35,489 nucleotides of DNA from positions 1 through 35,489 of the forward strand of contig JAAXMC010000122.1 of the NCBI GenBank assembly GCA_013036315.1. Reading direction: 5' to 3'. The notes beneath the pieces are model-generated. The model worked only from the letters and a program-made list of their open reading frames with translations. It made no database searches and had not been told where the DNA came from. This document shows, piece by piece, positions 13,494 through 16,812 of this stretch (position 1 is the first letter of the stretch; each line of letters begins with the position of its first letter). The DNA is from Vulcanimicrobiota bacterium. GTDB lineage: Bacteria > Vulcanimicrobiota > Vulcanimicrobiia > Vulcanimicrobiales > Vulcanimicrobiaceae. The position numbers were made by a program, and so were the translations under genes.

Positions 13494-13604
13494 TCGTGCA
13501 GCAGGGGTGTTAGCAGCCGTGGCCGCCCTTCCTGTTCGCTTGGGGAGCGACATAAGCGGCTAATAGGCCACGGAAATGGCGCCGATGCCTGGTGTGGGGA
13601 GAGA

Positions 13605-13610
13605 AAAGGA
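13605..13610 (+). promoter_or_regulatory. Ribosome-binding site of the first DEYFGRLK paralogue
   Basis: AAAGGA ends eight bases before ATG 13619 and favours this start over an in-frame ATG 27 bases upstream, which would put charged residues before the signal peptide. Confidence 0.6.
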
Positions 13611-13618
13611 GCGGCGCC

Positions 13619-14080
13619 ATGCGCTTACATCGCTTACTCGTTATCTTTACAGCTCTACCGGTGTTGGCTTTTGCCGCGCCGCAGCCGGCATTTTCGGCGA
13701 CCCACGTTGCTTCCATAAGATTTGCTTCGCGCGTTGCGCCGGCGGACGAATATTTCGGCCGTTTGAAGATGAGCATACTCGGCATTCGCAACCAGCTGCG
13801 CGATCTCGACCAGCGGTTGACGTACTCGCCCGATCGCGGAGCGGACGTTATGGGCACGGCCCTTTTCGTTGAAAACGCAATCCGCGATTGGGAATCCAAA
13901 TACCCGGCCGACCCGTGGCTGGCTCGCAGCGTTTACCAACTCACGCATCTGTACGCGCGCATTCATTCCGCCGACGGGCACGTCAAGGCAGTCAGCGCGC
14001 TGCACTGGCTCGTCAGCCGCTACCGCACTTCGCCATACTGCACCGTCGCGCAGAGTGAGGTGGGAAGCGCCCTGAAGTAA
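13619..14080 (+). CDS. Secreted protein of unknown function, DEYFGRLK paralogue 1
   Basis: The product has 153 residues from ATG 13619. Residues 1-26 are a clear signal peptide (RLLVIFTALPVLAFAAPQPAFSA). The mature part carries APADEYFGRLKMSILGIRN, then a helical region with ENAIRDWESKYPADPWLARS and a final HLYARI...ALHWLVSRYRTSPY helix pair. The same succession appears in the next gene, so the two are tandem paralogues. The helical, periodic pattern vaguely resembles TPR-like folds of cell-envelope proteins, but I recognise no named family. It is probably periplasmic. Only 15 bases separate it from paralogue 2. Confidence 0.8.
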   Translation: MRLHRLLVIFTALPVLAFAAPQPAFSATHVASIRFASRVAPADEYFGRLKMSILGIRNQLRDLDQRLTYSPDRGADVMGTALFVENAIRDWESKYPADPWLARSVYQLTHLYARIHSADGHVKAVSALHWLVSRYRTSPYCTVAQSEVGSALK

Positions 14081-14095
14081 GCGAACTGCCCCGGG

Positions 14096-14977
14096 GTGAT
14101 GAAGATTCGCTCCACCACACGATCGATTATGGCTGCCGTAACGGCAGCATGCGTTCTTGGTTCCGTAGCAGCGGCACCAACATCGAAGCCGCCGTCGAAA
14201 CCGGCCCCCAGAAGGCCGAAGCCGCCGGCGGTTTCGAGATTTCGGCAGCACCAGCTCGACATGATGAGGGTCTCGGCGCCCGGCGACGAGTATTTCGGTC
14301 GCCTCAAGCTGAGCTATCTCGGGGTCGACAACACGTTTCGCGACGAATCTATTCGGGCGGGCGCATACACCACCGATTCACATATCATTTCTCAGGTCAA
14401 TTTTGCGGAAGACGCGCTGCGAGACTGGTATAACCGCTATCCGAAAGATCCGCAGTTGCCGCGCTCGTATTTTCTGGCCTATGCCATGTACCGGAAAATC
14501 TGGACTCAGCCCGGGCAAGTCAAAGCGTGGCAGTATCTGCACATCATTGCGGCACGCTGGCCGGGCAGCTATTTCGGCAAGCTCGTGAAAAAAGACATGG
14601 TCGGTTTCGTCGAGCACTATTTTTTGGAACCCGCGCCGTGTCCATCGGAAGCGCCGGCTGAATCTCCAGCGCCCGGCGGCCGCCGCCGCGCCGCGCCAAC
14701 TCCGAGTCCGACGCCGACTCCGGTTCCGTCGCCGACGCCGACAGTCGGGCCGGGACAGCCATCGGTCGAACAGCTTCCCGTTCCGTGCTACACGCCGGTT
14801 CCGCCGACGCCGTCACCGGCGCCAATCCCGTCGATAGCGCCGACGATCGTTCCAACGACAGCACCGAGCGCGTTACCAACGGGATTGCTTACGCCGACGC
14901 CGTTACCATCAACACATCCGTCGACAACGCCATCGCCGGTCCCGACACGAACGCCGTTGGTTGCTAAGCATCATTAG
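14096..14977 (+). CDS. Secreted protein of unknown function, DEYFGRLK paralogue 2 with Pro/Thr-rich tail
   Basis: The product has 293 residues from GTG 14096; ATG 14099 is also possible, as no ribosome-binding site decides. The N-terminal 26 or so residues are a signal peptide (SIMAAVTAACVLGSVAAA), followed by a basic Pro-rich stretch. The core (about 55-175) repeats paralogue 1: APGDEYFGRLKLSYLGVDN, EDALRDWYNRYPKDPQLPRS, and a helical end. From about residue 183 the protein is low-complexity Pro/Thr/Ser/Ala, rich in TPSPTP units, which would form an extended spacer through the wall or periplasm. The two genes form an operon that ends in the structured element and terminator downstream. Confidence 0.8.
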   Translation: MMKIRSTTRSIMAAVTAACVLGSVAAAPTSKPPSKPAPRRPKPPAVSRFRQHQLDMMRVSAPGDEYFGRLKLSYLGVDNTFRDESIRAGAYTTDSHIISQVNFAEDALRDWYNRYPKDPQLPRSYFLAYAMYRKIWTQPGQVKAWQYLHIIAARWPGSYFGKLVKKDMVGFVEHYFLEPAPCPSEAPAESPAPGGRRRAAPTPSPTPTPVPSPTPTVGPGQPSVEQLPVPCYTPVPPTPSPAPIPSIAPTIVPTTAPSALPTGLLTPTPLPSTHPSTTPSPVPTRTPLVAKHH

Positions 14978-14980
14978 CGC

Positions 14981-15144
14981 CATAGGTACGCGGACAGGGG
15001 CCGCCAGGAAACCACTCGCAAAATTACCTCCATGTAATTTTGCTGTTTGAGCGTTTTTTCGAGAAAACAAAGTTTTGAAGTCGACATCCTGTCGAGCTCG
15101 AAAAAATCGCACATTCCCTGACGGCCCCTGTCCGCGTGCCTATG
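14981..15144. repeat. 164-bp structured element with 28-nt inverted arms and internal hairpins
   Basis: Arms 14981-15008 and 15117-15144 are inverted repeats matching at 26 of 28 positions; read as + strand RNA one of the other two is a U-G wobble and the other a C-A mismatch. Between them lie a 10-bp hairpin (15018-15027 with 15034-15043, loop CTCCAT), and a stem of TTTTTTCGAG (15054-15063) with CTCGAAAAAA (15097-15106), extended by three pairs past one bulged T. This stem encloses two small hairpins (15064-15076 and 15081-15095). No open frame fills it. It sits between a gene stop and a terminator, so it could be a structured 3'UTR or ncRNA, or a small mobile element with terminal inverted repeats. 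Confidence 0.85.
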
Positions 15145-15153
15145 CGTATAAAG

Positions 15154-15183
15154 AAAACAGCCCCGGCGAACCGGGGCTGTTTT
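15154..15183. terminator. Bidirectional Rho-independent terminator
   Basis: AAAACAGCCCCGG (15154-15166) and CCGGGGCTGTTTT (15171-15183) form a perfect 13-bp stem with loop CGAA. The A-run on one side and T-run on the other let it end transcription both from the DEYFGRLK operon (+) and from the convergent envelope protein gene (-). Confidence 0.93.
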
Positions 15184-15204: not shown

Positions 15205-16581
15205 TTAGAACTTCAGACCTAACCCGCCGTATATACCGCTGTAGCTGTAGTCCGACGGAGCGTTCTGTTTATTCTTGCCGTTGCTTCCGAGGAAGCCGAG
15301 CTCGATATAAACCGGAACGTTGGGACCGAACGTAAACGCGCCGCCGATATCCCAGCGGTAGACGTTGTACGCGAGCGTGAACGGTACGCCGGGCGGTATG
15401 CATCCGAGCGCGAGACAGCCGGTTCCGGTGCCTTGCACGTTCGGATAGTAGTACGCGCTGCCGTACCAGGTGAAGCCCGTGTTCAGGTCAGGTAGTTTCT
15501 CTACGCCGACGCCAAAGTTACCGAGTTTGGGATATCCGTAATTACCGGATTGCCACAGGTAACCGACGCCAATGTAGATGCGCGGATCCAGAACCTTGAG
15601 TCCCAAACGCGCATCGCCTTCATATTGGCGAGCGATGAACGCTGGTACGAAAGTTCCGTATTGTCCGCCGATCGCGGTTACGCAGCCTTGATCGCCTTCG
15701 GATGCGCGTCCGCCGACGCCGTTACAGAGTTGGCCGGCGTTCGAAGGCGTCGTTGCGACTCCTTGATTGTGCGGATAGTTGAATTGCCGATAGTCGCCCT
15801 CGATCATCCACGGCAGGTTGATGAGATTGAACTCCCACGCACCATGAATGCGATACGAGAAACCACCATTCGTGTTCGTGCCGGTGTTGCCCGGGCTGAA
15901 CTCGTTGTACACCTTCGGCGAAACGATATAGTCGCCGGCGATGAAGTGGTCTTGGTACGGGGCCGGCACCGGTGAAGGTGTTACCACCGGCACGGGTGAC
16001 GGGGCCGGAGTGACGGGCGGCGGAGGCGGCGTCGGCGGTATGTAGCGGACTACAACCAGACGTTTGTCCGGAACCCATTGCACGTACGCGCCCATACCTT
16101 CCGATATGACGCGAACCGGTACAACCACGTGGCCCTGGTATATTTCGGGCGGCACGTCCAACGGACGAGTTTCGCCATTGATCACGACCTCGGGTTTACC
16201 AACCGTCACTTTTACGTCGGAGCCGGGCTTTGTGACGTCAACCGTCTTTGACGCGGGATCGTAAGCGACCGTCGCGCCCATTTGCTCGAACATCGAACGT
16301 AATGGAATGAGGATGGTACCCCCGCGTACGAGCGCCGCCAGGACGCGGCCCTGTTTGAGCTCGTCCGGTTTCGCGTATACGTGGTGGTCGTTATAAAGGA
16401 TCGGAATTTGTCCGGACGGCGGGGAACCGAAGTTCATCGGCGGCGGAGCCGGGCTAGCCTGTGCGACCACATTGGTTCCTAGGTTTCCATGTGATCCAGG
16501 CTGCGACGGAGCTGCAACCGCGCTAAGTCCCAAGCCCGCTGTTAACAGCGCGGCGAGGACTCCGGTGCTCAGTCGTTTCAA
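15205..16581 (-). CDS. Envelope protein: copper amine oxidase N-like domain plus outer-membrane barrel
   Basis: The start is TTG 16581, chosen because a perfect AGGAGG (16588-16593) lies six bases upstream; an in-frame ATG at 16626 has none. The 458 residues comprise a signal peptide (1-24), a copper-amine-oxidase N-terminal (stalk) domain at about 60-182 with ILIPLRSMFEQMGATVAYDP and VVVPVRVISEGMGAYVQWVP, a Pro-rich linker at 182-209, and a region from about 212 rich in aromatic, alternating beta strands. It ends GGLGLKF, and a C-terminal Phe is the classic recognition signal for outer-membrane barrel insertion. I infer a periplasmic domain tethered to an outer-membrane barrel. No enzyme activity is implied, because this domain lacks the catalytic part of the oxidase. 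Confidence 0.82.
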   Translation of the reverse strand: MKRLSTGVLAALLTAGLGLSAVAAPSQPGSHGNLGTNVVAQASPAPPPMNFGSPPSGQIPILYNDHHVYAKPDELKQGRVLAALVRGGTILIPLRSMFEQMGATVAYDPASKTVDVTKPGSDVKVTVGKPEVVINGETRPLDVPPEIYQGHVVVPVRVISEGMGAYVQWVPDKRLVVVRYIPPTPPPPPVTPAPSPVPVVTPSPVPAPYQDHFIAGDYIVSPKVYNEFSPGNTGTNTNGGFSYRIHGAWEFNLINLPWMIEGDYRQFNYPHNQGVATTPSNAGQLCNGVGGRASEGDQGCVTAIGGQYGTFVPAFIARQYEGDARLGLKVLDPRIYIGVGYLWQSGNYGYPKLGNFGVGVEKLPDLNTGFTWYGSAYYYPNVQGTGTGCLALGCIPPGVPFTLAYNVYRWDIGGAFTFGPNVPVYIELGFLGSNGKNKQNAPSDYSYSGIYGGLGLKF

Positions 16582-16587
16582 GTTTTT

Positions 16588-16593
16588 CCTCCT
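16588..16593 (-). promoter_or_regulatory. Perfect Shine-Dalgarno deciding a TTG start
   Basis: Read on the minus strand, AGGAGG stands six bases before TTG 16581. It is the strongest ribosome-binding site in the window and fixes the start of the barrel protein. Confidence 0.85.
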
Positions 16594-16812
16594 AGCTAGA
16601 ATGAGGAGCTCGGATTGCCTGGGCATGAGGCGCTATTTCGGCGCTTTTCCTACAGACGAACCAAGCGTGGGTTTCGTCGCAGGGATACCCAAGAGCAAGC
16701 AAAGCTAATCGCGTTAATCGTTTCGGGAATCGGGTTGCCCCCCCTTCAGTATAAGCGAGGTCAGGCTTGCCGGGGGGCCCTGGCCGGTTCCCTTTCGTTT
16801 ATAAAGGTAGCG
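16594..16812 (-). promoter_or_regulatory. Leader/promoter region of the barrel protein gene
   Basis: This 219-bp region holds no gene. A possible -10 box TATACT lies at 16748-16753 (minus strand) without a good -35, inside a G-run/C-run segment (16735-16780) that can fold back on itself. If used, the 5'UTR would be about 160 nt. Within it, 16649-16683 can form a 13-bp stem with two single-base bulges around a 7-nt loop, and 16630-16644 a small GCGC stem. I could not match it to a riboswitch class. Confidence 0.35.

Follow-up and report, generated by a model that had tools for sequence, protein, structure and literature searches.

The MITE-like repeats ERIC, RUP, NEMIS and bcr are palindromic, intergenic sequences of about 100–200 bp that can fold as RNA, and the attC sites of integrons are folded single strands defined by their structure, with a variable sequence. 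To our knowledge, known small mobile repeats are recognized by conserved ends. REPINs are short, non-autonomous, extragenic hairpins built from inverted repeats, present in many copies per genome and showing compensatory changes within the hairpin (PMC3116915).

The 164-bp hairpin described here shares all of these features with REPINs and BIMEs, but in those the outer ends are invariant and the spacer variable, whereas this element combines a conserved core with variable outer arms; a conserved REP sequence at both hairpin ends is missing, as the arms are unrelated between most copies. REPINs are mobilized by a RAYT, a Y1 transposase, while no Y1/RAYT transposase (PF01797) was found in the 25 genomes of the family that were scanned (G000–G024), the window's genus included, nor any mobilizing protein; a RAYT-mediated REP was therefore rejected. 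The element is similar to the MITE-like repeats in its size, palindromic form, intergenic position and RNA foldability, and dispersed copies without a gene and insertion polymorphism are found as well. However, the terminal inverted repeats of those repeats are conserved within a family, whereas here they are specific to each site, except for three copies in one genome (G086). The initial annotation had weighed a mobile element with terminal inverted repeats against an ncRNA, and as a classical MITE this element does not hold, because those repeats differ between most copies. The integron attC site may serve as a working analogy, being a folded strand defined by structure, where in the present case the variable part would be the outer clamp. 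The reading preferred here, with a probability of about one half, is that of a non-autonomous, REPIN/MITE-like dispersed mobile element of one Eremiobacterota family, recognized as a folded single strand.

The element lies at positions 14981–15144 of the window, the stretch of 35,489 nucleotides that was analyzed, and its arms (14981–15008 and 15117–15144) pair at 26 of 28 positions, the pairing reaching 31 bp when GGAA/TTCC is counted. Besides it, the window holds only one further inverted repeat whose arms reach 16 bp, a 16-bp pair elsewhere. The interior is formed by a 10-bp hairpin (15014–15046) and a long stem (15048–15113) with two mini-hairpins inside. Folded as RNA, the element has a minimum free energy of −93.1 kcal/mol on the plus strand and −93.9 kcal/mol on the minus strand, against −44 and −49 for shuffled sequences (z −12.1 and −10.5), and the minus strand folded as single-stranded DNA gives −59.4 (z −12.6), bearing out the arms and the two-tier internal fold that had been described from the letters.

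The whole element (14981–15144) is supported by its folding energy relative to shuffles, and its selected fold is placed on the minus strand by the covariance-model match and the asymmetry between G.U and A.C mismatches. Read on that strand, it is closed by a clamp helix, P1, whose 5′ arm (15114–15144) is specific to this site, matching only the element's own two arms in the ten genomes searched, and whose 3′ arm covers 14981–15011. P1 encloses the conserved core common to the copies, of about 102 nt (15012–15113), arranged as a junction of stem P2 with its apical hairpin P3 and of hairpin P4. P2 (15048–15113) carries the internal mini-hairpins and a conserved UUC and AAAACUUUGUUUU region; P3 (15081–15095) exposes the loop ACAGGAUGU, with a GGA at 15087–15089 that is kept in 99 of 103 copies, and P4 (15014–15046) the loop ACAUGGAGGU, with a GGA at 15029–15031 kept in 95 of 103.

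Regarding the neighbors, the upstream gene (14096–14977, plus strand), coding for a DEYFGRLK protein, ends with a stop codon 3 nt before the element, and a perfect 13-bp terminator-type hairpin (15154–15183), separate from the element, stands before the convergent gene (15205–16626, minus strand), which codes for a Cu_amine_oxidN1 domain (PF07833); this agrees with the placement first proposed. The terminator-type hairpin is also present at the orthologous sites L044 and L045. The adjacent reading frames 13592–14080 and 14096–14977 both contain the DEYFGRLK motif and look like tandem relatives, and a Pfam search gave no family for either. The product of 15205–16626 is predicted to be secreted, with a long C-terminal region of unknown type behind its Cu_amine_oxidN1 domain.

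The core occurs seven times in the genome that the window comes from (1.67 Mb, 57% complete), and BLAST against 60 relatives detected it in each of the six congeneric genomes. In the first alignment, the core was about 80–87% identical, while the outer arms were unrelated between copies and self-complementary within each. Run on 148 related genomes, a covariance model made from 27 copies matched 219 times, in 52 genomes that all belong to one GTDB family (f1) of Candidatus Eremiobacterota, a lineage of permafrost and other soils, with one to more than 20 copies per genome; no more than 22 candidates per genome were scored, so that G012 and G069 may hold more. The window copy itself was recovered on the minus strand (G000:C122:14996-15129, 147.7 bits, E 4e-31). 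Among the 53 copies that were oriented and had their arms measured, the arms are typically 20–47 bp long, about 95% paired and dissimilar from site to site. The whole window is without an Rfam match above the gathering threshold, a relaxed search giving chance-level matches only, in agreement with the earlier remark that no described family has this layout. A phage or plasmid element was rejected, as no match to it was found in phages, plasmids or IMG/VR. That the hairpin is one copy of an undescribed, dispersed repeat family is certain, as are the fold, the dissimilar arms and the distribution. In G069, an element lies no more than a few hundred bases from the start or end of six contigs (C12, C70, C100, C235, C45 and C194), which would be expected of hairpins that interrupt assembly, and copy numbers in metagenome-assembled genomes (MAGs) are probably underestimates.

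The covariation check called for by the initial annotation gave double-sided changes in 45 of 49 pairs, and 97% of the paired cells are complementary, compared to 67% in shuffled and 35–48% in slid alignments; none of 500 shuffles reached any of the five covariation measures. Since paired changes can also be produced by template switching, covariation alone does not prove selection, and the type of mismatch is decisive. In RNA and DNA alike, G.U and purine–purine mismatches are more stable than A.C and pyrimidine–pyrimidine ones. Over the arms of the 53 copies, read on the minus strand, G.U exceeds A.C by 89 to 8 (p 2e-18) and purine–purine exceeds pyrimidine–pyrimidine by 54 to 10; with one copy per site and the five pairs beside the core left out, G.U and A.C still stand at 37:6 (p 1.6e-6). 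This bias towards the stabler types is strong evidence that the fold of the window's minus strand is under selection. Thus, the arm substitutions favor neither strand in the window copy alone, as first noted, but clearly do so across the family, and the suggestion that the element forms the 3′ end of the DEYFGRLK transcript finds no support, the selected fold being on the opposite strand. The ncRNA reading stands insofar as a covarying, strand-specific fold is found at many syntenic sites. The bias is equal whether the neighboring genes run with or against the strand, a weaker point than it looks because copies flip. As G.T pairs are also better mismatches in DNA, single-stranded DNA and RNA are not separable from the sequence alone.

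The mobility of the element is strongly supported by empty sites. At the L043 site of G002, the orthologous sites in G001 and G006 and a paralogue in G002 are empty, the convergent stop codons overlapping there without interruption (CTCTAG); the filled site holds the whole element, arms included. L015 and L053 also have empty orthologues in relatives, and at L171 of G012 the sister genome G069 is empty, pre-existing arm sequence being limited to the outer 9 bp of a single arm. The clearest case of recent spread is that of G086, where the three copies have a common core and common arms within unrelated flanks, indicating that arms are able to travel with the core. Together with the seven copies in the home genome, these cases uphold the dispersed and mobile character that had been considered at first. 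Of the target duplications expected along with dispersed copies, a possible TA is seen at the L043 site only, the other empty sites being not exact.

A strict TA target and several origins of the arms were examined and set aside. The mild enrichment of TA just beyond the arm ends is explainable by stop codons. Arms acting as guides or as copies of another locus do not agree with the search of ten genomes, in which no arm matched anything but its own two arms. Insertion of the core into pre-existing long hairpins is not supported, because the empty sites lack arms; in the 371 kb of fetched DNA, elements aside, inverted repeats are only short or isolated (17–20 bp). An inverted target duplication is likewise unsupported for the whole arm, with 9 bp (L171) and about 4 bp (L043) present in the empty sites. 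At the orthologue of the L043 site in G003, an unrelated REP-like hairpin, CATCCTGAGG...CCTTCGA (L106:1649-1797), occupies the same convergent gene end, suggesting that gene ends are recurrent landing sites for hairpin elements. Other hairpins are also seen where another species has the element, at L098 and L104 (orthologues of the L029 site) and L102 (orthologue of the L015 site), with the sequences GTGTCATCCT... and GGCGGGCGCG-TA-GCGCGCCCGCC.

Many copies are found at one site in different species, some of them across genera (L012/L019, L002/L038 and L007/L058), and this persistence suggests a host function or a very slow loss, which is counted against the mobile-element reading. Relative to its flanks, the core is inverted at six sites in the window's genus (g1), and three pairs between G012 and G069 (L017/L179, L169/L180 and L038/L181) differ by inversion with recognizably the same arms, being strong evidence for inversion in place. 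In eight orthologous pairs of these two genomes, perfect double changes in the arms number 20 and single changes 19, and most cores of such pairs are 0–2 nt apart. Template switching between inverted repeats, which homogenizes arms and inverts spacers, is documented in yeast (PMC8604942), and the pattern of arms and cores fits this process, working in addition to a selection that maintains the fold. Orthologues in G012 and G069 have an arm identity of 0.73–1.00, whereas paralogues with 0–2 core differences have 0.50–0.63, compared to a null value of 0.56 ± 0.06. Unrelated arms on nearly identical cores, likewise a point against the mobile-element reading, require either that arms were remade at some insertions or that cores were homogenized by gene conversion.

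Taken as a mobile element, the hairpin would be recognized as a folded single strand by a trans-acting mobilizing protein, and the dissimilar arms suggest that the fold, not the end sequence, is what is recognized. The acting form would most likely be single-stranded DNA exposed at replication, as in REPIN/IS200-type elements, with recognition probably through the two GGA loops; the clamp helix P1 may only hold the core, and template switching from one arm to the other during replication would maintain the complementarity of the arms and turn the core around. A more specific proposal, held tentatively and with less confidence than mobility by folding in general, is that the element is defined by structure, a perfect clamp helix being acquired or rapidly re-randomized with each new copy and a trans factor reading the two GGA loops. 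If true, this would be a class of mobile nucleic acid whose conservation lies outside the terminal inverted repeats; if the factor were CsrA, the elements would be mobile, dispersed CsrA decoys. Confirmation would also provide a natural, replicated record of inverted-repeat upkeep and spacer inversion in bacteria, and would reveal a new structured family, specific to one strand, within an uncultured phylum.

CsrA binding is a serious rival to the mobile element, although not the lead, and rather doubtful on balance. According to it, the element would be a multi-copy CsrA-binding RNA, a sponge or tether, whose transcribed minus strand would offer one CsrA dimer two ANGGAX hairpins separated by about 57 nt, with the RNA stabilized by the clamp helix. 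The loops ACAUGGACGU, ACAGGAUGU and CCAUGGAUGG fit the CsrA/RsmE consensus, an ANGGAX hexaloop on a stem, and the SELEX sequence RUACARGGAUGU (PMC4005645, PMC7652899); the GGA, retained in nearly all apical loops (99/103 and 95/103), stands mostly in the context (A/C)CA(N)GGANG, and the spacing is inside the bridging range of 10–63 nt. Moreover, CsrA is present in all six same-genus relatives (G001–G006) and in most of the family. CsrB/RsmZ-type sRNAs are similar in having a CsrA-consensus GGA in their apical hairpin loops and more than one site per RNA, whereas here there are only two sites per copy, many dispersed copies and no detectable promoter or terminator. In addition, CsrA was not found in several element-bearing genomes, namely the two of genus g10, G015 (97% complete) and G071 (90%), as well as G031 (11 copies, 86% complete) and G033 (5 copies, 84%), an absence that is uncertain as all four are MAGs. 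The H2 GGA is nevertheless retained in these four, and some CsrA-positive genomes likewise have CGA in H1. CsrA is present in most element-bearing genomes, and a dependence of the element on it is neither supported nor refuted by their co-occurrence. Neither a promoter-like nor a terminator-like signal was found beside the arms, with no U-tract after them, and 25 of the 40 copies between tandem genes are antisense to both neighbors, which speaks against a CsrA-binding transcript. An intrinsic terminator and an independent sRNA gene were rejected for the same lack of a U-tract and of a promoter signal.

A cis-acting element at the 3′ end of neighboring mRNAs, serving as a transcription barrier or as an mRNA stabilizer beside stop codons, is unlikely, even though it would explain the location of the copies: the 77 with both neighbors called comprise 37 between convergent, 40 between tandem and none between divergent genes, and the arm ends are mostly no more than about 25 nt from a stop codon. 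Tolerated extragenic elements, REP among them, would also be expected to be distributed in this way at gene ends. In opposition to a 3′-end role, the selected strand tracks the core and not the neighboring gene, with no difference between sense and antisense copies, the core is seen to invert in place, the arms lack a U-tract, and the window copy is adjoined by a terminator of its own. Very improbable is a neutral long palindrome, kept perfect by replication template switching and with covariation as a mutational artifact of no selected fold, since, although such switching homogenizes arms and inverts spacers (PMC8604942) and double changes are unusually frequent here, it predicts no strand preference, in contrast to the strong bias of the mismatches (89:8), and the core shows conserved sequences in its loops and junction.

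The elements also occur close to each other and host other repeats. Pairs in opposite orientation are present in G073 (L198:1394-1527 and 1573-1701, about 46 nt apart) and in G061 (L197:1350-1480 and 2587-2717, with 1.1 kb between them). In L005, L007 and L048, the tip of a P2 mini-hairpin is swapped for a palindrome of the CCCTGAGC...GTCGAAGGG type, a different dispersed repeat nested inside the element, and the longer model match of L196 points to the same nested repeat there.
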